DNA of 34,949 nt. Source: a virus. The position numbers and the translations under genes are program-made. The stretch covers positions 1 to 34,949 of the IMG/VR virus record IMGVR_UViG_3300031952_000074. One strand, given 5' to 3'. The notes beneath the pieces were generated by a model. It saw nothing but the letters and a program-made list of their open reading frames with translations. It had not been told where the DNA came from and did not search any database. Positions 128-27,431 of the stretch are shown piece after piece; position 1 is the first letter of the stretch; each line of letters starts with the position of its first letter.

Positions 128-393
128 ATTCTCTCACCGGGGGGGCAAGCGCGGCTACTGGTGTTGGTGCTGGGACACTAATTGGCGGTATTTTGGGTGG
201 TGGGATCGCTGGCGGATATGTCGGGGGGAGAGCTGTTGCCGGATATGTGACCGAAACACCACCGACACCGAGACCTACCGTACATATTGAGAAGTTAGAG
301 ATCAACTCACTTTCAGAAATCGATGATGATACAGCTAGGATTGTGGCTGAGAAGATCGCGTCGGAAGTTGGCAAGAGAGGAGGGCCAATTTGA
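1..393 (+). CDS. Tape measure protein, C-terminal part (continues from the right end)
   Basis: This is the end of the gene that starts at 33377 and runs through the circle junction; the frame is open from base 1 to a TGA at 391-393. The joined protein is about 612 aa. This part holds a Gly/Ala-rich hydrophobic stretch (about residues 487-563 of the full protein), common near the C-terminus of tape measure proteins, then a Pro-rich linker and a charged helical tail. The next gene starts with TTG at 390, inside the stop codon (TTGA overlap), with a GAGAGGAGG ribosome binding site just before it. The hydrophobic part may reach the host membrane during DNA ejection. Confidence 0.88.
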   Translation, partial: GAGDLAVKNAALLAGTVAGSMVGAGLASTYGGISGIAGVLEGYSLTGGASAATGVGAGTLIGGILGGGIAGGYVGGRAVAGYVTETPPTPRPTVHIEKLEINSLSEIDDDTARIVAEKIASEVGKRGGPI

Positions 394-2552
394 CCTACAC
401 ACCAACGAGGATAGTTCCGGTCCTTCAGCCGATGGTCTTCACGAACTTGGGCAACGACGGCGCGGCCACGCTCTATGTTTCAGGGATGCAGTCTGGAGAG
501 AAGGTCGAGGTCTATGAGGGCGTAACGTTAGTCGGGACGGCGACCGCTACTGGCAACACCATGACGATCTCTCTGTCCGGTCATTCTGGTTTGCCTTTCA
601 TTGGATCATTCAAGACTTATTTTGTGGGCGGGGCATTGGCCTATACTTCCGAAACCCGAAGCGTTCACGGCAACGACGAATACTATTACGGAATCCCGAT
701 AGCGCCAGACCTTATGGTTCGCAATTCAGGAACCGAGCAGATAGCTTCAGCCGAAGCAAAAACGAAGGACACCCATTTCACCATAAGTCAGTTGTTCGAA
801 TGCGAGGACGAGTTCGACATCTACATCGGTTCAACAAAGGTCAAGCGGTTCCTTCTCAAGAACGTCAAGCAGAAAATCGACGTGCCCAAACTGAAGATAA
901 TCTCTTGGACTTTTCAGGATCATCTGGCATGGTTCAAAGGTTTCGTGATTGACAAGGATTACGGTACTTCTTACGATGGCGAAATCATCAAGGATCTGGT
1001 GACTCTTTCAGTCCTATCGATTGACACGACCAATGTGGACAGCATAAACCAATACACGACATACACGGCTGGCGACAAGTCCGCGCTGACGATCATGCAG
1101 GAATTCGCCTCTGCCGCCGATGCGATCTTCTACCTGAACGCTTCCGACTATCTGTATTACAAGGCCAAGTCCGGTCTTTCGGTCATCAAGACGGTAACTT
1201 GGTCGGATGTCCTAGAGTTCGGCGAGATTACGACGGACGCAACCGAGCTGGTCTATAAAGTAAAGGTGATGGGTGGAGTGGTCGGCGGGAGACAGATCTA
1301 CGTCGAGAGAACCAAGGTGGGCATATCCGAGGACGTGGCGCAACTATACACCCATGTCGTTTCCGACCCGACGATAACCGACTGGAAGTATGCCGAGGAG
1401 CTGGCCGATTCGATTCTCGATGATAGACAAAACCCGAAGGCACAACTGAGGATAACGGTTGAGGGCGACCTGACAGTCTATCCGGGCGCGAAGGTGGCAC
1501 TGAACCTAACGGAGATCGGCTATGTCGATGATTACTATGTTGTCGAGGCAGTCCACAGGGTCAAGGGCGGGATCTTCCTGACTGAGTTATTGGTGGGCCA
1601 CTATGTTCCACGGATAAGTCTCGACGTTGCGACCCTATACGAAAGGCAGCGGGTAATCGATAGGTCTCTGACTCAGGCAAGGGAGGCAATCCTTTCACAG
1701 TTGTCTCTGGAAGCCGGAGAACTTTCGGACTATGAGCCCGCTTACTCGATGATCGAGACGCTCACGAATACCGAGGTTAATTTGACTAGCGCGGAGGAAA
1801 AGATCGTGCTGACCGCAGGATCGACAACCGGTTCGGCGACCTGTTTGCTTTCACCGAGCAGGGAATCATTCCAGTTCTGGAGAGATGTTGCGTGGCGTTC
1901 TGATGTCAAGGAGGGAGCGATAACCGTGAATCTTCTCGACTCACGGGATAACACACTCTATTCGAACATAACCAGTCCGCTCGACCTCTATCCCTATCCG
2001 GGGAATCTCGACTTCGCCGAATGCCTTTCAAGTGAATGGACAACGACCAACTGCAATGTCTTCAATTCCATCTCCGCGATCTTTGGCACTTATTCTCTCA
2101 GGCAGGCGGCCGCAACCGGAACGGAAAGGAAAGCAAAGTATCCGTTCACGGACACGATCTCTGGGAACGATTACCGTTACCTGACCTTCCAGCTTTACGC
2201 CCCTGTGACTGGCACATTGCAGGTTCGACTTCATTCCGGCGCGGGCTACTATCAGCAAACCATACTTGTCACTCAAATCGATAGCTGGGAGGAATACGTC
2301 ATCAACATGACGGTTGGAGACTGGTCGGTCGTAGGTTCGCCGACTGGCTGGACTTCGCTTGAGGCGATTGAGTTGATTCTGCCTTCGGCCTACACTGGAA
2401 GTTATGTCTTCTGGGATTCGATTCGTTTTGAGAAGGTTCGCTATGAGACTCTGAAGATAGTCTTTGCGCTAACTAGAGTGAGTGCTGGTCTTGCTTCGCC
2501 TGAAATCTATGAGCGCGTGTACAACTACAGTTCTGGAGGTGTGTTCGCCTAG
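390..2552 (+). CDS. Tail tip / baseplate hub protein with C-terminal carbohydrate-binding-like domain
   Basis: A 720-aa protein directly after the tape measure gene, where siphoviruses place distal tail and hub proteins. It starts with TTG overlapping the previous stop and has a strong SD (GAGAGGAGG). Residues about 1-110 are a small beta domain. Residues about 110-440 look like a gpD/gp27 or Gp37-like hub: a long alpha/beta stretch ending in the pattern of an OB-like domain (YPGAKVALNL, then DDYYVVEAVHRVKGG). A helical linker follows at about 450-480. Residues about 540-690 resemble a jelly-roll carbohydrate-binding module (Trp/Tyr-rich, SSEWTTTNC to FWDSIRFEK). Inference: it caps the tube and begins host recognition. 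The hub call rests on position and pattern, not on a catalytic motif. Confidence 0.7.
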   Translation: MTYTPTRIVPVLQPMVFTNLGNDGAATLYVSGMQSGEKVEVYEGVTLVGTATATGNTMTISLSGHSGLPFIGSFKTYFVGGALAYTSETRSVHGNDEYYYGIPIAPDLMVRNSGTEQIASAEAKTKDTHFTISQLFECEDEFDIYIGSTKVKRFLLKNVKQKIDVPKLKIISWTFQDHLAWFKGFVIDKDYGTSYDGEIIKDLVTLSVLSIDTTNVDSINQYTTYTAGDKSALTIMQEFASAADAIFYLNASDYLYYKAKSGLSVIKTVTWSDVLEFGEITTDATELVYKVKVMGGVVGGRQIYVERTKVGISEDVAQLYTHVVSDPTITDWKYAEELADSILDDRQNPKAQLRITVEGDLTVYPGAKVALNLTEIGYVDDYYVVEAVHRVKGGIFLTELLVGHYVPRISLDVATLYERQRVIDRSLTQAREAILSQLSLEAGELSDYEPAYSMIETLTNTEVNLTSAEEKIVLTAGSTTGSATCLLSPSRESFQFWRDVAWRSDVKEGAITVNLLDSRDNTLYSNITSPLDLYPYPGNLDFAECLSSEWTTTNCNVFNSISAIFGTYSLRQAAATGTERKAKYPFTDTISGNDYRYLTFQLYAPVTGTLQVRLHSGAGYYQQTILVTQIDSWEEYVINMTVGDWSVVGSPTGWTSLEAIELILPSAYTGSYVFWDSIRFEKVRYETLKIVFALTRVSAGLASPEIYERVYNYSSGGVFA

Positions 2553-2555
2553 CAC

Positions 2556-5081
2556 ATGGTCGTGATTCGTCAATTTCAGGGAAGGAAAGCAAAGCGGTTC
2601 GAGTATCCATATCTTGACGCGGTTCCTGCCGAAGTCCTGACGACTGACGACGACGCGAAAAGCCCGGTCGCTCTGGGCGCGGACAACACCACCGCCTCTT
2701 ACGTTGACATCAAAGTTTATGGTGACAACCAGTGGGGCCAGACGTTCAACACGAACGAACTGGGCGTAACCACGGATTCATTTATCACTGAAACCACCAC
2801 TGGTGATGAAATCATAGGTGCAGCTTGGAGAGCGCAGACTTTCACGGCTGGCTCGTCATATACTATCGGAAAAGTCAGACTCATGCTCGCCAAAAACGGG
2901 GCGGCGACCGCGGGTACAGTCACGGCCAGCATAAGGGCCACTGCCGGAGGACTTCCGACGGGAGGCGACTTGTGTTCGGGTTCGCTGAATGGGAATTTAT
3001 TCAATGACTTCAGTCCTATGGCTTGGTACTGGTTCTATCTGGGGGCGGGAACGCCTCTCACTTCAGGAACGGTGTATGCCATAGTGATTCGTGCCCCAGC
3101 GGCATCCGTGGCGATTCGCCACCGATACAATAACGCCAATGCCTATGCGGGAGGACAAAAAGCAAACTCGGCGGATTCAGGTGCAACTTGGGCGGCGAAT
3201 GCAGCGAACGACATAATATTCCAGACTTCCAGACCGGAGACTTCCATATCGAAGGTCACGATTTACGGTAAGAAGGTAGGGAATCCAAGCGCATTATTGA
3301 TGAACGTCTATGCGACAAGCGCGGGACTTCCAACTGGTGCGTCCCTGAAATCAGGGACGAGTTCGACGCTGATCGAAACTCTGGCAGAGAACGAAATCAC
3401 TCTATCCTCTGCCCTAACCGGACTAACCGGAAATACCGTCTATGCCATCATGTTCAGCCAGAGTGGAACGAGCGCCTCTGATTACTATGTATTGATGTTC
3501 GGCAAGGATTCGTTCGGCGAAAGCATTGTCAAAAGCACCAATGGTGGATCTTCCTATTCGGCACTTGCCAATGTGAATCTTTACTCCAAGATATACAAGA
3601 ACACTGAGGCCGCCTATGAAACAATCAATACCGAGATGTACACGATTTTCACGACTCAAAAGATAGCCCAGACATTTCTCGGCATAGTGTCAACCTGCCG
3701 AACCATCTATCTGAAACTTCGCAAGCACGGAACCTTCGCAAGCGCAGTAACGGTTGAATTAAGGGACACGAGCGAGACCGGGACGCTTCGCAACACGACC
3801 ACGATAGCCGCCGCCGACATCCCGACAGACTGGGCACTGATACCGGCGGTATTCTCTGCGACCTATACTCTGGCGGCTTCCGGTTACTGCATCGTCGCCT
3901 ACCCTTCCGTCTCAACCGGGGATTCGGCCAACTGCGTTGAATTCGCCCAGACAAGCTCGTCCACATACGCCACTTACAACATGAGCCACTACATTTCTGC
4001 TTGGACGCAATACACGAACTTCGACCTGATCTTTGGCGTCGCTATGCTCCAGACTCAGAATCACATTGCACAGGAAGATGTAACTGGTGGTGGCAAGTAT
4101 GACGTTTACGCTGCAGTCTGGATATTCCAGACTCTCAAGGTCACAACGAAAACCAATGTGAGAATCGTCCAGTTCAAAGGGTACAAGACTGGCGCCCCGG
4201 CGGACAGCCTCTATTGCATGCTGGAGAAGATGGACACCTCGACCGCGAAACCGGACGGCACGGCCCTCTATACTGGCTCGATTGCGGCCGCTTCGGTTGG
4301 AGGCTCCCCCGGTGGTTGGTACAGCATCACGATCTCCTATCCGCTTGAGATGAACACCTACTATGCCATCGTATTCAAGTCGCCCGGTTCTGCGGCCGCT
4401 GCCAACGGCTATCAAATCTATTATTCAAACGCCAATCCCTACGCTAATGGCAATGTGGGAACGTCGGCCGATTCGGGCGTGACATGGACGGCAGTCGCGG
4501 CGAACGACCTGGCGTTCAGGATAACCGTCCCGACCGAGCAGAAGATATTCGACGAAACGATTGATTGCGCCGACACCGATCTGATCTCGGCTCTGGCAAA
4601 CATCCACTTCGGCATGGACGGAACCCTGAAAAGTTACGACGGGAATTACGTCACCCTGAGAGTCACCTTTGACGACGTTGAACAGACTGATTGCGGCGCA
4701 CAAATCAACGGCACTACGGCTTACTTCACCGTGGAACTCATAAGCGAACTGAAGGAGATAAGTCAGGCGAGCGTCAGTGTGGAAATGTACGGCGCTGGAG
4801 ACGGCATCATAACGGAACTGGTCTATTGCCGCTACCGCTACTTCGATAATGACGCGCCCACTGCCGCGAACTTCGGCTGTTCCGAGATGATAATGGTCGC
4901 CTATAAACTTCCGGTTGGCTCTTACTTCTACCTGAACGACGATTCCGATCAGATGTATTACAACCCGCTTGGCGCGAGTAGGGACAAAGTAGAAGATTTT
5001 GGGGCATATCAGCGCGAGGTCAATGTCCGCAAGATAACGTTCGCCAGTGGCAAGGCGACAATCGTCCTCCTTGGTAGGTGA
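2556..5081 (+). CDS. Large repeated beta-sandwich tail adhesin
   Basis: An 841-aa protein, 3 nt after the hub gene, following the same transcription unit. It contains about four copies of a beta-sandwich of 120-150 aa, near residues 86-228, 232-350, 365-495 and 515-662. Recurring signatures are QTFTAGSSYTIGKVRL-like openings, LPTGxxLxSG loops and, in the first and last copies, an AN(A/P)YAxG...SADSGxTW block (about residues 190-225 and 624-660). These resemble jelly-roll domains of secreted cell-surface proteins. Residues about 665-841 form a different C-terminal domain. No cysteine or protease motif stands out. Inference: receptor-binding or side fibre protein that binds host surface glycans; the repeats probably arose by internal duplication. 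Confidence 0.7.
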   Translation: MVVIRQFQGRKAKRFEYPYLDAVPAEVLTTDDDAKSPVALGADNTTASYVDIKVYGDNQWGQTFNTNELGVTTDSFITETTTGDEIIGAAWRAQTFTAGSSYTIGKVRLMLAKNGAATAGTVTASIRATAGGLPTGGDLCSGSLNGNLFNDFSPMAWYWFYLGAGTPLTSGTVYAIVIRAPAASVAIRHRYNNANAYAGGQKANSADSGATWAANAANDIIFQTSRPETSISKVTIYGKKVGNPSALLMNVYATSAGLPTGASLKSGTSSTLIETLAENEITLSSALTGLTGNTVYAIMFSQSGTSASDYYVLMFGKDSFGESIVKSTNGGSSYSALANVNLYSKIYKNTEAAYETINTEMYTIFTTQKIAQTFLGIVSTCRTIYLKLRKHGTFASAVTVELRDTSETGTLRNTTTIAAADIPTDWALIPAVFSATYTLAASGYCIVAYPSVSTGDSANCVEFAQTSSSTYATYNMSHYISAWTQYTNFDLIFGVAMLQTQNHIAQEDVTGGGKYDVYAAVWIFQTLKVTTKTNVRIVQFKGYKTGAPADSLYCMLEKMDTSTAKPDGTALYTGSIAAASVGGSPGGWYSITISYPLEMNTYYAIVFKSPGSAAAANGYQIYYSNANPYANGNVGTSADSGVTWTAVAANDLAFRITVPTEQKIFDETIDCADTDLISALANIHFGMDGTLKSYDGNYVTLRVTFDDVEQTDCGAQINGTTAYFTVELISELKEISQASVSVEMYGAGDGIITELVYCRYRYFDNDAPTAANFGCSEMIMVAYKLPVGSYFYLNDDSDQMYYNPLGASRDKVEDFGAYQREVNVRKITFASGKATIVLLGR

Positions 5082-5088
5082 TAGGAAC

Positions 5089-5901
5089 ATGAGCTGGACA
5101 AGCAAATCCGAAATGATGGAGGAAATCTATGCTCTCAGGCAGGAACTCGATCATTTGCTTCACGAGGACGGCGGCGACATCGCCCAAATCAACGATAAGA
5201 TTCTGGCCCTTCAGAAGGCGAACACGGAAATCCTCGCATGGCGCGACAGCATGAGCAAGCACATCACCACCGCGATAACCGCCCCCGCGACCGGAACCAC
5301 ACAATACGGATCCATCTCTGTAACGGCAACCGCAGTAGATACTCTGGCCCATGCCATAGCGAAGGTCGATTTCTACATAGACGACGTTTTCTTTGCCACG
5401 GACGCCGCTTCGCCCTACACGGTCACGCTGGACACGACCAAGTATTCAAATGCCTCTCATACAATCAAGGTACTGGCCTACTGCACCAACGCGGCGGTCG
5501 GCTGGGGTTCGGCGACCATCACCATAACGATAAACAACGTCATCCCAACTGGAGGAACGACCGTCGGGGGAGGAACGGCCAGCTATGGCGATGTGGTAAG
5601 CGTCCAGATTACAGCTCCTACGCCGGGTTCAAGCGTGCCAATGAATTTTTCTATTGATGTCCTTGCCGTATGCTCCTCACAGCATCCAATCACTACTTTT
5701 AGCCCGACACCTGCGATGACATGGCATGTTTCCCCGACTGGAGGCACTGGGGCACTAATCCGAGTGAGTTTCGACAGCGCGAACCAACTCAAAAAGACCT
5801 TTACGATTACGGCCACTTGCGCCCACGGCACGACTGGAACCGCTACCGGGACCTACATCAATGCAGGCTATACTGGGCCACCGACAGGCGGGCAAGTATA
5901 G
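5089..5901 (+). CDS. Coiled-coil plus Ig-like domain tail fibre protein
   Basis: A 270-aa protein. I chose ATG 5089 over an upstream in-frame start at 5047 because AGGTGAT at 5075-5081 is a good SD and the start then follows the previous stop (TGA 5079-5081). Residues 1-60 are charged and heptad-like, a probable coiled coil that would trimerise. Residues about 65-150 match the Ig-like fold of surface proteins (KVDFYIDD..., then SPYTVTLDT and SHTIKVLAY). A second beta domain follows a Gly/Thr linker and ends in a Gly/Pro tail. Position after the adhesin suggests a fibre or baseplate decoration. It is the last gene of the tail unit; the stop codon lies just before a TATA element. Confidence 0.65.
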   Translation: MSWTSKSEMMEEIYALRQELDHLLHEDGGDIAQINDKILALQKANTEILAWRDSMSKHITTAITAPATGTTQYGSISVTATAVDTLAHAIAKVDFYIDDVFFATDAASPYTVTLDTTKYSNASHTIKVLAYCTNAAVGWGSATITITINNVIPTGGTTVGGGTASYGDVVSVQITAPTPGSSVPMNFSIDVLAVCSSQHPITTFSPTPAMTWHVSPTGGTGALIRVSFDSANQLKKTFTITATCAHGTTGTATGTYINAGYTGPPTGGQV

Positions 5902-5913
5902 AAGGCTTAAATA
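5902..5913 (+). promoter_or_regulatory. Archaeal-type promoter (BRE + TATA), leaderless start at 5935
   Basis: AAGGCTTAAATA with TATA core CTTAAATA at 5906-5913. The ATG of the next gene is 21 nt downstream and has no SD, which fits a leaderless archaeal transcript. The element is almost identical to the one at 8711-8722. Confidence 0.7.
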
Positions 5914-5934
5914 GACAAACTTGGGAATAGGTTC

Positions 5935-6264
5935 ATGGGCGACATAAGAACGGTACTTCTGGTGACAGGAGAATGTCTGGCCGTCCTACTCGCAATTATG
6001 TTGATTCACGAGGCTTTTCATATCGCCGTCTATGGCGCTTTTGGAGTTTCTTCGTGGTTGGCTTTAGGGGATGATGGCAGGCCATATGCCGCCTATGATG
6101 TCGCCGAGATGTCAAGTCTACCCTCACAGAAAAGCACCGAACTCTTCCGCATACAATACTTCATAGATAGCATCCCAGTTTCCTTGGCTACACTTTTGTT
6201 GGATGCGGGTCTCTCCCTATTCGTCCTGAAAAGGAATCTACGGCAGAAAAATGAAATACTGTAA
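5935..6264 (+). CDS. Small membrane protein with HExxH motif (possible minimal M50/S2P-like protease)
   Basis: A 109-aa protein with two hydrophobic segments (about 6-44 and 76-98). The first contains H25-E26-A-F-H29, the HExxH zinc-binding motif, followed by a V/FGV stretch as in membrane-embedded M50 (site-2) proteases. The second contains D78-x-x-P81 and L89-D90-A91-G92, which resembles the NxxP...LDG motif that supplies the third zinc ligand in that family. M50 enzymes usually have four or more membrane segments, so this would be very small. It starts a separate transcription unit with its own TATA promoter and overlaps the next gene. If not a protease, it may only be a metal-binding membrane protein. 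Function is inference. Confidence 0.6.
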   Translation: MGDIRTVLLVTGECLAVLLAIMLIHEAFHIAVYGAFGVSSWLALGDDGRPYAAYDVAEMSSLPSQKSTELFRIQYFIDSIPVSLATLLLDAGLSLFVLKRNLRQKNEIL

Positions 6265-6436
6265 CAACTGTCAGAGGATGGTCGAACCGACCAAGCACTT
6301 CAACTGGGCGATTTTCCTACTTGGGTGGTTCACATTGGGGTTAATCTCGGTAGGCTATGTAATCTTCTATTTCTTTATGAGCGGCAGATGTCCCATGTGC
6401 AACTCTCAGAACTGGGGCGTTCCCCCGCCGAGCTAA
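6251..6436 (+). CDS. Membrane-anchored zinc-ribbon protein
   Basis: A 61-aa protein overlapping the HExxH gene by 14 nt. C4-x-x-C7 and C47-x-x-C50 flank a hydrophobic hairpin (about residues 19-43), so both halves of one zinc ribbon would be brought together on the same membrane face. It is co-transcribed with the HExxH protein and may act with it. No specific function is recognisable. Confidence 0.7.
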   Translation: MKYCNNCQRMVEPTKHFNWAIFLLGWFTLGLISVGYVIFYFFMSGRCPMCNSQNWGVPPPS

Positions 6437-6441
6437 TTAGA
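6429..6441 (+). promoter_or_regulatory. Candidate late promoter motif 1 (CTAATTAG)
   Basis: GAGCTAATTAGAA, core palindrome CTAATTAG at 6433-6440, with a diverged GC flank. The TTG start at 6465 is 24 nt downstream and has no SD. Confidence 0.5.
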
Positions 6442-6464: not shown

Positions 6465-6671
6465 TTGCTGTCGCTTGAGACAATCGTTCAAGTCGTCAAT
6501 GTCGTGGCTCTGGCCCACCTCGCCCTGATCTTCTTCGCCATCTGCGTCCGGCCAGATCATAGCGTCGTCGTGAAAGAACCGAACCAAGTCATAAGGATCT
6601 CAGAACTTCTGGTCTGCCTCATCGTCTTCGTCGTCGACCTCTGGATTCTCTGGGTTTCGATATTCGGATAG
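6465..6671 (+). CDS. Small two-helix membrane protein
   Basis: A 68-aa protein with hydrophobic segments at about 8-27 and 45-66 and a short charged loop between them. The TTG start has no SD and lies 24 nt after a CTAATTAG motif, consistent with a leaderless transcript. I do not recognise a family. Membrane topology and its place beside the holin-like cluster leave a role in lysis or membrane change open. Confidence 0.55.
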   Translation: MLSLETIVQVVNVVALAHLALIFFAICVRPDHSVVVKEPNQVIRISELLVCLIVFVVDLWILWVSIFG

Positions 6672-21593: not shown

Positions 21594-21760
21594 CTGACTT
21601 AGCTGATTGGGTTGGTTCTCTTCAGAAACAAGAGACACAAGAAGAACGAGACCTACGAGAACTGTTAGAACTATTAGAATCATTGAAACCGAAAGAAACC
21701 GTCTATTGGCAATTCTCGTTCACATCTAACGACGATGGTACCGCCATTTGGAGGATTTGA
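21590..21760 (+). CDS. Small acidic protein, unknown
   Basis: A 56-aa protein beginning at ATG 21590 (ATGA overlap). A Glu/Leu-rich helix (QEERDLRELLELLESLK) is followed by a short beta hairpin. No family recognised. Confidence 0.5.
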   Translation: MTDLADWVGSLQKQETQEERDLRELLELLESLKPKETVYWQFSFTSNDDGTAIWRI

Positions 21761-21765
21761 GACAG

Positions 21766-21843
21766 ATGACACGCAGAACCGACTCCGATGGCCATGCGCT
21801 GACTCCAGTCTGGCCCAAGAAACCGAAGAGGCGAAAACGATAA
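21766..21843 (+). CDS. Very small basic peptide
   Basis: A 25-aa frame with SD GGAGG (21750-21754) ending in TAA that overlaps the next start (TAATG). The C-terminus is Lys/Arg/Pro-rich (PKKPKRRKR). I prefer this reading of the gap to a longer frame from 21735, because it gives proper coupling signals on both sides. Could bind nucleic acid. Confidence 0.4.
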   Translation: MTRRTDSDGHALTPVWPKKPKRRKR

Positions 21844-22043
21844 TGGTCTTCAGATGCGAAGATTGCGACGAAGAATTCAAAGATCCGGACACTATCTATT
21901 ACTGCGCTTCCTGTAAGTCCTACGTCTGCGAGGCCTGCCGTCTGGACAGCCACCTGAAGCACCGGGTCATGATTCGAGGGCCGGATGAGAAGTGGATTCG
22001 CTCGACCTTTGACTATGAAGCGGCAAGGGCTGAAACGAAATGA
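21843..22043 (+). CDS. B-box-like double zinc-finger protein
   Basis: A 66-aa protein with eight ligands in order: C5, C8, C21, C24, C29, C32, H37, H40. This cross-brace spacing resembles eukaryotic-type B-box/ZZ zinc fingers. The C-terminus is charged. ATGA overlap with the next gene. In B-box proteins the domain mediates protein contacts; the role here is unknown. An alternative in-frame start at 21735 would add 36 residues. Confidence 0.65.
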   Translation: MVFRCEDCDEEFKDPDTIYYCASCKSYVCEACRLDSHLKHRVMIRGPDEKWIRSTFDYEAARAETK

Positions 22044-22755: not shown

Positions 22756-24716
22756 CAGCGCCAGACGTCCAGAAGCCAATAGATGAGACCGAAGATTTTA
22801 TTCATATTCGTGTGAAAGACCCCGGCCAATTCAAGACCTGCAGGACAACCGATTTCTCGGGCAAGTTACCAAAAGGAGTGAGGGCCAAATACTGCCAATA
22901 CAAGGACAAGGATGAGTGGGCGGTCCAGGCTTGGATCTTCACGAAGGCGGACGGTTGGACGGTCGAAAAAGCGAAGGCGTGGGTCAAAGATCATTCTGAC
23001 GAGTTTAAGATAGCGAAAGTCGTTTCTCTCGTTGGGAAGACAATCGTCATGCCGGGCATCCTGCAGAAGTCAGAAGAGGACGACACTATTGAGGGCTGGG
23101 CAACCACTGGCGCCATCGATCTTGACAATCAGATAATCGAACCGACCGCTTTCGAGGAAGACCTTCCCGCTTTCATGAAGAACCCGATAATGCGTTTCAT
23201 GCACGAATATCCGGTAGGCAAGTGGCTCGACGCGAAGGCAGAGGTCAAGGGTCTGTACGTGAAGGGCAAATTCGCTTCCACTGAACGCGCGAAAGAAGTC
23301 AAGCAACTCGTGGACGAAGGAATAGTGAAGGGGCTTTCAATCGCCGCCAAGATCAAAGAGGACGGAACCGAATGGAGACACGACGACGAACTGGATCAGG
23401 ACATCCTGCATTTCACGAAGTTGCGTCTGCTTGAAATCTCGGTCGTGGACGTTCCTGCCAATCCAGAGGCCATGCTGGAGTTATCAAAGCGCCTGAAACT
23501 CGATTCTGAACCGATACTGATCGGCCAAGCAGCCCCTCCACCGCCACCCGAAGTTCCCGAGGGAGTCCCGAAGGAGAAATCCCCCCCACTTAGTGAAATA
23601 GAAATCAAAGACATAGAAGTCGCCCAAAAGGAATTGGCAGAAGGCAAGGGTAGAACATTCAATAGCGCGGAAGATGCTATCAAGTGGCTAAACACAGAGG
23701 AACCGGAGGAGAAGCCGAAGGAGAAGCCAGAACCAGAGGAGCCAGCCGTTCCGCCTGCCGCGCCGATGCCCGTGGATCTTGGTGCCGCAACTAATACAGT
23801 GCCGACCACCATCATCGTTGGTCTTTCAGATGTCTCTATGAAATTGATTCCGAAGATTACTGCGAGAGTGACGACCGAAGCAGATGGCAAGGTCACAAGT
23901 TCAGTACAGGAATTGGTAATGCCCGAAGTTGACAAGGATGTTCCCCCTACAATCCTCGGCTCGATTCAGGAATTCCGGGATGCCGTCCAAAATGCCCCGA
24001 TAGAGGTTCACAATGAGGATGGAAGTATTACCGTTATTCCCCCCGAAGGAGAATCAAACGAGAAGGTCAAGTTCTCACGAGGCGCGGTTGAAAGTCACGA
24101 ACCTCCGAAAGCAGAGGAAGGCAAGGCGTGGGACGCGAATGCAGCAATCGCACGACTGAAGGTATGGGCGGAGGCATTCGGCGACGAATACAAGACGGGG
24201 TTTGCGTGGTCCGACCCAGAAAACTCCGGTTCATGCAAGTTACCGCATCACGACATAGTTGATGGAGGTCTCGTTGTCGTATGGAACGGCGTCGCAGCTG
24301 CTATGGAAGAGTTGCTCAGAGCGAGAGGGGAAGTGGACATTCCAGCCGCAGACAGGAAGGGGGTGTATTCTCACTTGGCCCGGCACTATCGCCAGTTCGA
24401 CAAGGAGGTTCCGGAATTCAAGTCCGTGAAACAACTGTTGATCGAGGAGATGACCGCCTTGGATGTCGTCATAGCCGATAAGGACAAGATCATAGCGGAG
24501 AGAGACGCAACTGTCAAGGAACTCGTAGCCAAATTGTCTGAACTCGAAACCAAGGCGAAAGAACTCACGGATAAATTGTCCGGGCCTAAAGTCACAGAAC
24601 CGACTGAGAGACTGAAGAAATCGGGCGTGACTGTGCCAGCATCGGAATCAGAAACGGATGATAGCGGGCAAGAACCCGGATCTGTCGCTGAATTGTTCCC
24701 AGCTCGCGCTAATTAG
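22752..24716 (+). CDS. Prohead maturation protease fused to scaffold-like region
   Basis: A 654-aa multidomain protein. Residues about 24-80 hold a small phage domain (GVRAKYCQYKDKDEW..., WTVEKAKAWVKDH). Residues about 95-240 are a HK97-type (XkdF-like) protease: DLDNQIIEPTAF, MRFMHEYPVGKW (His near 151), VKGLSIAAKI (Ser near 195) and RLLEISVVDVPANPEA (acidic site near 227). A Pro/Glu linker follows. Residues about 458-556 hold a second phage domain (GSCKLPHHD..., HLARHY.QF). Residues about 570-620 are coiled coil, fitting a built-in scaffold. The stop codon TAG is part of the next CTAATTAG motif. Confidence 0.85.
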   Translation: MTAPDVQKPIDETEDFIHIRVKDPGQFKTCRTTDFSGKLPKGVRAKYCQYKDKDEWAVQAWIFTKADGWTVEKAKAWVKDHSDEFKIAKVVSLVGKTIVMPGILQKSEEDDTIEGWATTGAIDLDNQIIEPTAFEEDLPAFMKNPIMRFMHEYPVGKWLDAKAEVKGLYVKGKFASTERAKEVKQLVDEGIVKGLSIAAKIKEDGTEWRHDDELDQDILHFTKLRLLEISVVDVPANPEAMLELSKRLKLDSEPILIGQAAPPPPPEVPEGVPKEKSPPLSEIEIKDIEVAQKELAEGKGRTFNSAEDAIKWLNTEEPEEKPKEKPEPEEPAVPPAAPMPVDLGAATNTVPTTIIVGLSDVSMKLIPKITARVTTEADGKVTSSVQELVMPEVDKDVPPTILGSIQEFRDAVQNAPIEVHNEDGSITVIPPEGESNEKVKFSRGAVESHEPPKAEEGKAWDANAAIARLKVWAEAFGDEYKTGFAWSDPENSGSCKLPHHDIVDGGLVVVWNGVAAAMEELLRARGEVDIPAADRKGVYSHLARHYRQFDKEVPEFKSVKQLLIEEMTALDVVIADKDKIIAERDATVKELVAKLSELETKAKELTDKLSGPKVTEPTERLKKSGVTVPASESETDDSGQEPGSVAELFPARAN

Positions 24717-24718
24717 AG
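24703..24718 (+). promoter_or_regulatory. Candidate late promoter motif 6 (before major capsid)
   Basis: CTCGCGCTAATTAGAG, core 24709-24716. The TAG doubles as the stop codon of the protease gene. ATG 24748 of the capsid gene is 31 nt downstream and has no SD, as in a leaderless mRNA. Confidence 0.65.
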
Positions 24719-24747
24719 GACTGCCTTCAAACGAGAATCGAACCGAT

Positions 24748-25776
24748 ATGAAATTCGGAAGTGTAAGAGTAGACGAAAATCTAGCGTTCAAATCAGCATT
24801 CGGTAACATCACGCCAGACAGAGACGGCTATCGCTACGTGGATTACTTCAGGGGCATAGACCAGAGAGGCAAGCTGTTCGAGGACATCAAGAAGACTAGA
24901 GACACCACGACCGACACCTATGCGCTCACTCCAATCTATCCGAGCAGGGAGATCATCGACATCGCAAGGAGAAAAGACCCACTCTGGGAGCTATTCCCGA
25001 AGGTGGCAGTCAATCAGCGCACGTTTGAGTTCAACCAGCTCACAGATTACGGAACGAGCGTCGGAAGATTCTTGGGCGAATCCGGCACTTTGGTCGGAGT
25101 CGATGCAACCTATTATCGCCAGTCAAAACCAGTCAAGTTTGCATATGCGACCGGAGGACTAACGGGCCCGGCAATAAAGACCGAGTATCTCACAGACCCT
25201 CTGGCTGAGGAAGTGCGCGTCAAGGTTCTCGGCTTAACCGACTTCTTGGATCAGGCACTCATCAATGCAGATTCGACTTCTCACACCGTTCCATACGGAG
25301 ACGGCTCGACCGAACAATCTTGGGAGGGCTTGATAGAGCTGCTTGGATCGACCAACAGGGTTGATGCAGGTTCAGCCGCGGTCTCAATCGAGAAGATCAG
25401 GGAAGCGATAAGGAGCGGCATCATGGACGGTGGAGATCCATCACTTCTGGTCACTGACTTCGCTACGCTCGACTCGATCAAGGGCTTACTGATGAGCTAT
25501 CAAAGATTCGTGGATAAGATCGACCTCGCGTGGGGTGCCAAGACTGTCGAGTTTGACGGACTACCGCTAATAGGAGACTCGAAGATGCCAACCGGCTCGA
25601 ATGCAAAAAGACTGTTCGCGCTCGACATGGAATACGCCAAGGTCGGGGTTCTCCAGGACATAACCTATGAACCTCTGGCCAAGACTTCTGACATAGATTC
25701 CTTCATGCTGAAATTCTACGGTGTTCCAGTCCTGCAGGCAATTCCGTTCAACGGCCACATCTACCAGATAGCATAG
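24748..25776 (+). CDS. Major capsid protein (HK97 fold)
   Basis: A 342-aa protein following the prohead protease, the standard place of the capsid gene. I chose ATG 24748 over the in-frame start at 24658, which would overlap the protease and precede the promoter motif. Features include an N-terminal helical arm, LWELFPKVAVNQRTFEF, GESGTLVG, LLVTDFATLDSIKGLL and a C-terminal FYGVPVLQAIPFNGHIY strand, the pattern of HK97-fold proteins. It starts the longest head unit (24748-29412). Confidence 0.85.
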   Translation: MKFGSVRVDENLAFKSAFGNITPDRDGYRYVDYFRGIDQRGKLFEDIKKTRDTTTDTYALTPIYPSREIIDIARRKDPLWELFPKVAVNQRTFEFNQLTDYGTSVGRFLGESGTLVGVDATYYRQSKPVKFAYATGGLTGPAIKTEYLTDPLAEEVRVKVLGLTDFLDQALINADSTSHTVPYGDGSTEQSWEGLIELLGSTNRVDAGSAAVSIEKIREAIRSGIMDGGDPSLLVTDFATLDSIKGLLMSYQRFVDKIDLAWGAKTVEFDGLPLIGDSKMPTGSNAKRLFALDMEYAKVGVLQDITYEPLAKTSDIDSFMLKFYGVPVLQAIPFNGHIYQIA

Positions 25777-26131: not shown

Positions 26132-26365
26132 ATGAAGCGAGGGAAAGAAACTCGCATGGCTATTTTACGTGAGATTAGGGGGATCAAAGACGAGATGTCC
26201 CAACTGGACAACATGATCCAGATAGGCACTTTTGGTGAACAGGTTTCGGCTACTGAACGCTATCGCTCAAGAGCCGAGGAACTCCGGACCAGACTCTCGA
26301 CGCTTGAAAACCTGCTGAGGGAATTCGAGAAGCCCGCAATAGCGGATGTGATAAAGGTTGTCTGA
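26132..26365 (+). CDS. Coiled-coil protein
   Basis: A 77-aa, nearly entirely helical protein with heptad spacing (LREIRGIKDEMSQLD; EELRTRLSTLENLLREF). SD GGTGA. It overlaps the collagen-like gene by 8 nt and might anchor that fibre to the capsid or help it trimerise. Confidence 0.6.
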   Translation: MKRGKETRMAILREIRGIKDEMSQLDNMIQIGTFGEQVSATERYRSRAEELRTRLSTLENLLREFEKPAIADVIKVV

Positions 26366-27431
26366 AGAAGCATTCGGGGGATATACGAAGGTTTTGGTGA
26401 ATGACGTACCACTCGTAAAAAGGGGTCAACTGAATTTCAAGAGTGCATCCGCAGTCATCCGAGACAACCCGGACAAGAATACTACCGATGTTGAATTCAA
26501 TACAGGAGAAGGAGGAGGAAGTCAAGGTCCGCCAGGACCGCAGGGAGAAAAGGGCGATAAGGGTGACAAGGGAGACACTGGGTCACAAGGCCCGCAGGGT
26601 GAGCAGGGTTCGACTGGGTTACAGGGTTCACAAGGAGACATAGGCGACACAGGATCGCAGGGGGAGATTGGCCCCACAGGTCCGAAAGGTGACAAGGGCG
26701 CCGATGGTGAGACTGGGGCACCGGGAGCTAAAGGTGATACCGGTGCTGTGGGTCCGCAGGGAGAACCGGGTCAGCAAGGGCCGAAAGGCGATACTGGGTC
26801 GCAGGGAGAGCAAGGAATCCAAGGTATTCAAGGGTTGATAGGTCCCCCAGGGATTCAAGGAGAGCAGGGAATTCAGGGCGAGGTCGGGCCAAAAGGAGAT
26901 GTAGGGGATACTGGACAGCAGGGCATTCAGGGCGTTAAAGGAGACAAGGGAGATCAGGGAGACCCTGGGCCGGGTATTGTCGCTGGGATAATCGCAATGT
27001 GGTCGGGTTTGCTTGCTAGCATTCCTTACGGATGGGCTTTATGCGATGGCACAAATGGAACGCCAGACTTGAGAGATAGATTCGTATTAGGAACAAGCAC
27101 AGACGAGAACCCAGGAGCGACGGGAGGCAGTTCAACTTACAGCCATTCAGGAACGGCCGTAGGCGCCCATTCCACTTTGACGCACTCAGGAACCGCGGTA
27201 GCTGACCATCCCGCCACGGCTACGAGCCAAGCCGATGTCGGCGCGACAAAAATCGGTACTACGACTTCGACCGCAACCCTCAAGACGCATACGCACAATA
27301 CCCCCATTCTATCGCATAGCGTGACGCAACCCAGCGACCATTCCATTTCTGCTCATTCAGTAACGCAACCGAGCGACCACACCAATGTGAACCCACCCTA
27401 CTTCAAACTCGCGTTCATAATGAAACTATGA
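26358..27431 (+). CDS. Collagen-like fibre with tail-collar-type C-terminus
   Basis: A 357-aa protein starting at TTG 26358. Residues about 54-206 are some 50 unbroken Gly-X-Y triplets, enough for a triple helix of roughly 43 nm. Residues about 208-357 match a phage tail-collar domain: IPYGWALCDGTNGTPDLRDRF, and NPPYFKLAFIMKL at the end. Between them lie His pairs (HTH, HSG, SDHS repeats), like the metal-binding HxH tips of trimeric fibres. It lies among head genes, between capsid and connectors, so a head fibre is at least as likely as a tail fibre. Confidence 0.85.
   Translation: MSEEAFGGYTKVLVNDVPLVKRGQLNFKSASAVIRDNPDKNTTDVEFNTGEGGGSQGPPGPQGEKGDKGDKGDTGSQGPQGEQGSTGLQGSQGDIGDTGSQGEIGPTGPKGDKGADGETGAPGAKGDTGAVGPQGEPGQQGPKGDTGSQGEQGIQGIQGLIGPPGIQGEQGIQGEVGPKGDVGDTGQQGIQGVKGDKGDQGDPGPGIVAGIIAMWSGLLASIPYGWALCDGTNGTPDLRDRFVLGTSTDENPGATGGSSTYSHSGTAVGAHSTLTHSGTAVADHPATATSQADVGATKIGTTTSTATLKTHTHNTPILSHSVTQPSDHSISAHSVTQPSDHTNVNPPYFKLAFIMKL

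Follow-up and report, generated by a model that had tools for sequence, protein, structure and literature searches.

A two-helix membrane protein of a likely archaeal virus carries an HExxH helix resembling that of site-2 proteases

This study concerns a small gene, P0001, in a 34,949-nucleotide stretch of viral DNA (IMG/VR record IMGVR_UViG_3300031952_000074), which was analyzed as a whole and is referred to here as the window. The translation of P0001 contains the residues H25-E26-A-F-H29, G37, V38, D78-S-I-P81 and L-L-L-D90-A-G. The gene is flanked by the last of a run of tail-fiber-like genes (390-5901) on one side and by small membrane genes (6465, 7999 and 8422) on the other, none of which has a confident family match; in tailed phages the region between tail-fiber genes and small membrane genes is a common place for exit genes. 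The 8-mer CTTAAATA at 5906, 5 nt past the preceding stop codon, is not rare by itself (2 found against 0.55 expected); the placement of the box would suit an archaeal-type promoter whose leader is very short. The 3' end of P0001 overlaps by 14 nt the 5' end of a gene for a zinc-ribbon-like membrane protein, which has no family match and no tblastn match in phages, while the following gene, 6465-6671, sits behind a promoter-like element separate from that of P0001. The open reading frame, the HEAFH motif at residues 25-29, D90, the TATA-like box and the overlapping CxxC-TM-CxxC gene all lie where an earlier note on this DNA had placed them (Table 1).

Table 1. Coordinates of P0001, its surroundings and the features compared with it.
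Feature	Position	Strand	Description
TATA-like box CTTAAATAG	5906..5914	+	29 nt before P0001 start codon
P0001	5935..6264	+	109-aa two-helix membrane protein, ATG start
HEAFH codons (P0001 residues 25-29)	6007..6021	+	from sequence
CxxC-TM-CxxC protein	6251..6436	+	61-aa zinc-ribbon-like membrane protein; C4xxC7, TM 21-39, C47xxC50
Promoter-like GCTAATTAGA	6432..6441	+	opens next transcription unit
Two-TM protein	6465..6671	+	68 aa, TTG start; Asp D58 inside second TM; speculative partner only
GCTAATTAGA copies	6432, 6677, 17808, 22447, 24708, 30202, 31723	+	exact match
HExxH two-TM gene of other virus contigs	L137:6733-7032; L153:939-1235		99-100 aa; pattern match

A 127-nt end repeat indicates that the window is probably a complete circular caudovirus genome of ~34.8 kb, and Terminase_6, portal, prohead protease and SU10-type capsid genes are present in it. 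Distant relatives of its large terminase subunit (TerL) occur in Thermus phages and in the haloarchaeal phage Hardycor1. Among the TerL sequences found in IMG/VR the closest has 50% identity (L008), and the virus with the 50% identical TerL (G002) has almost no other gene in common with the window; by this IMG/VR TerL comparison the virus apparently represents a deep lineage whose close relatives were not found. The element GCTAATTAGA is present in seven exact copies, every one of them about 30-50 nt before an ORF, where shuffled sequence leads us to expect none. It looks like a promoter-like element that splits the genome into transcription units, and with its short leaders it looks like a TATA element of archaeal type, from which we consider an archaeon the likely host of the virus. 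As a start for the capsid gene (24658-25776), the ATG at 24748, 40 nt after a copy of the element, is preferable to 24658, where the first in-frame ATG lies. The product of the gene at 26358-27431, among the head genes, is collagen-like (Gly-X-Y), ends in a collar-type C-terminus and is perhaps a capsid fiber; the gene at 21735-22043, between portal and prohead protease, encodes a small protein whose match to the B-box zinc finger is marginal (E 5e-5, slightly below the cut-off).

The coding score of the P0001 frame is +0.11 bits per codon, against -0.31 to -0.64 in the other five frames, so that it alone of the six looks coding; its GC3 (0.50) and its synonymous codon choice are both atypical for the genome. 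On the strength of the in-frame codon statistics P0001 is a real gene, and its product is a virus-encoded membrane protein with two helices. Hydropathy peaks at residues 6-24 and 80-98, the first peak being closed by the HExxH motif, and both P81 and D90 fall within the second helix. Two AlphaFold2 (AF2) models are of low confidence (pLDDT 67-70, pTM 0.36-0.40); the one predicted with three sequences has helices at 4-35, 65-79 and 84-108 and strand bridges at 44 and 50. These low-confidence models suggest a short hairpin at about residues 43-51 between two helices, and Foldseek searches with both AF2 models returned no M50 protein among the matches.

One alternative account is that P0001 is an ordinary small two-TM protein from the tail or lysis side, resembling a holin, an antiholin or an exclusion protein; the HExxH would then be coincidental and would have no metal-binding or catalytic role. 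The unconvincing structure models leave room for it, as does the clustering of genes for small TM proteins near P0001 (6251, 6465, 7999 and 8422), for which the label 'holin-like' reflects size and hydropathy only; no proven homologue of P0001 shows conservation of the motif, which was possibly picked out of many windows. Against this account stands the rarity of a charged HExxH terminating a TM segment: 80 other virus contigs yielded 1,205 ORFs with 202 TM segments, none of which has the motif in or beside it, so that its occurrence in P0001 is more than would be expected by chance. The glycine at +12 from the first histidine, discussed below, fits an S2P-like helix too, and the same layout recurs in a second small viral protein. 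Weighing both sides, we regard an ordinary membrane protein as only slightly less likely than the S2P-like reading proposed below, and as less likely than not.

This second protein came from a scan of 2.9 million virus contigs with a degenerate pattern that asked for a hydrophobic helix, HExxH and Gly at +12, which returned 64 stretches, the convincing ones among them belonging to one small two-TM protein in two records, L137 and L153. Other hits of the scan were set aside, L163 as antisense to a head gene and L156, L166 and L171 as open frames of 36 residues; the matches to HExxH with G34 or to HEAFH in further scans were all chance ORFs, antisense frames or soluble proteins. Relatives of P0001 itself were found neither by scanning virus and genome contigs for peptide patterns, nor by tblastn in phages and plasmids, nor in 33 virus records with related TerL; L002 and L003, fetched via neighboring or capsid genes, proved unrelated or too distant. 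The L137/L153 protein contains HEQVHVAIYSGYG[VI]ES, two TM segments and a proline-bearing helix at H+52, and shares with P0001 the string HExxHxAxYxxxG[VI]xS, a hydrophilic loop, the proline helix and a charged C-terminus. It differs in having glycine at the position of D90, and its gene lies between small genes adjoining an HNH gene. The genes in L137 and L153 are 92% identical in DNA amid adjoining genes that are mostly unrelated, and a dN of 0.031 against a dS of 0.281 (dN/dS about 0.11) indicates purifying selection; together these features suggest a mobile, selected cassette. L153 also has archaeal-looking TATA boxes. As both records were picked with a pattern derived from P0001, the motif match is partly by construction, the identities outside that selection within the motif helix being A31, Y33 and S40, and outside this helix the similarity of P0001 to L153 is not above that of shuffled sequences. 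Since the support is confined to the pattern-selected helix, we treat homology between the two proteins as possible.

The earlier note had likened P0001 to the catalytic core of the M50 site-2 proteases (S2Ps), and this likeness holds for one helix. In P0001 as in the M50 S2Ps (MjS2P, 3b4r; SpoIVFB, 8vjl; RseP) a TM helix ends with the HExxH, and the HExxH helix of P0001 is in the same register as S2P TM2. Glycine follows the first histidine at +12 in P0001, L153, MjS2P and the DUF3267 consensus, and valine at +13 in P0001, L153 and MjS2P, the MjS2P letters used for this comparison being equal to PDB 3b4r in full. SpoIVFB has Ser-Trp at these positions, and thus Gly-Val/Ile is common and not universal in S2Ps. 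The predicted hairpin of P0001 follows the HExxH helix, where S2Ps carry antiparallel strands, between TM2 and TM3 and in front of the HExxH (PMC11486902). A proline in the helix after the motif lies at +56 in P0001 (P81), compared with the TM3 AGP proline at +45 in MjS2P and +48 in SpoIVFB.

The rest of the core has no counterpart in P0001. In a passage of PMC9042235 that cites Kinch 2006, three conserved TM segments are given as the catalytic core of S2Ps; the metal ligands of SpoIVFB are H43, H47 and D137, the aspartate standing at +94 in TM4 (PMC9042235, PMC11486902). P0001 extends only 84 residues beyond H25, has two TM segments, and lacks both TM4 and an aspartate at +94. The proposed equivalence of DSIP...LLLDAG with the S2P motif NxxP...LDG thus breaks down: D90 is 65 residues from the first histidine, against 94 in MjS2P and SpoIVFB and 81 in the DUF3267 consensus, and P81 is nearer to the AGP proline of TM3. 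Nor is D90 kept in L137/L153, which have glycine there. With TM4 missing and D90 at +65 in the proline helix, D90 is unlikely to be the homologue of the S2P aspartate ligand.

Profile searches gave no Pfam match at E up to 5, whether with M50 and M50B (PF13398 absent) or with M48 and M56, while RseP, as a positive control, matches PF02163 at 3e-79. P0001 has no match in Pfam, PHROG, NCBIfam, PDB or BFVD; an hhalign comparison with S2P covers 19 columns only, at 9% probability, and outside the HExxH helix the similarity to S2P does not rise above shuffles. Because the resemblance is that of one helix and the comparison for a third ligand failed, the tests made here do not place P0001 in M50 or DUF3267. 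Membrane zincins of another type, M48 (HtpX-like) or M56 (BlaR1-like), would have a glutamate as third ligand, for which E69, at +44 from the HExxH, is available, and in these families too the HExxH lies near a TM segment. The usual M48 motif is HExxHxxxxD. P0001 instead reads HEAFHIAVYG, and with the M48 and M56 models silent as well we consider this assignment very improbable.

From the sequence resemblance of the HExxH helix we tentatively propose that P0001 is an S2P-like two-helix zincin, perhaps a minimal membrane metalloprotease or a subunit of one, a reading to which we would give somewhat less than an even chance; enzymatic and non-enzymatic roles are about equally likely, the latter either through a chance motif or as a mimic of S2P in the style of BofA. 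As a zincin, P0001 would bind metal at the membrane through H25 and H29 and would function as TM2, hairpin and TM3 do in a site-2 protease, most likely using zinc to cleave a segment embedded in the membrane or adjacent to it. The lacking third ligand might come from D90, from a second subunit or from a partner; its supply in trans, for example by D58 of the 6465-6671 neighbor, is conceivable, and L153 has no neighbor like this gene. In view of the tail-fiber and holin-like gene setting, the promoter-like box of its own and the overlapping CxxC membrane protein, the putative substrate would more likely be found at the interface of virus and envelope, in exit or exclusion, than in replication; the earlier note had named a host regulator, exit or superinfection exclusion as what the protein could act on or in.

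A bolder reading is that archaeal viruses encode a class of two-helix S2P-like enzymes, composed of an HExxH helix, a hairpin and a proline helix, with the third ligand taken from D90, a second subunit or a protein in trans such as that with D58. Split or minimal, such an intramembrane metalloprotease would be the smallest known; we consider this reading unlikely. An active two-helix viral version, if real, would show how little intramembrane metalloproteolysis needs, and it would also point to a means by which a virus acts on archaeal membranes, a setting in which little is known of exit and exclusion proteins. An inactive P0001 would be an ordinary orphan membrane protein.

Two further known systems offer a comparison for these readings. 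BofA, an inhibitor of SpoIVFB that is not known to have an HExxH motif, is a small membrane protein that acts on an S2P, and P0001 may share this with it as a possible mode only. In a reading modeled on BofA, P0001 would be a non-catalytic mimic that retains two helices of the S2P core and acts as a blocker by pairing with a host S2P or with the substrate of such a protease. The absence of the helix bearing the third ligand would suit such a role, and TMS2 of BofA fills the active-site cleft of SpoIVFB (PMC9042235); a blocker, however, has no need of the catalytic glutamate and both histidines, and BofA is thought to work by steric hindrance, without a zinc ligand (PMC9042235). We therefore hold a mimic to be improbable.

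For P0001 as an S2P-like zincin, the comparison is with DUF3267 (PF11667), a short domain of 108 positions whose consensus has the HExxH and the glycine at +12 as in P0001, with a proline at +47 compared with +56. P0001 lacks the TM segment that bears the distal aspartate of this family, and PF11667, on which the DUF3267 consensus used here scores 107 bits, matches neither P0001 nor anything else in the window. DUF3267 proteins belong to the S2P clan and mostly have four TM segments; one of them, TmcP, is active, its cleavage depending on a two-TM partner, TmcE, and being lost on joint mutation of the motif histidine and the distal aspartate (preprint PMC13252029). The activity of TmcP, in a family of mostly four-TM proteins, means that reduced forms of the S2P clan do exist.
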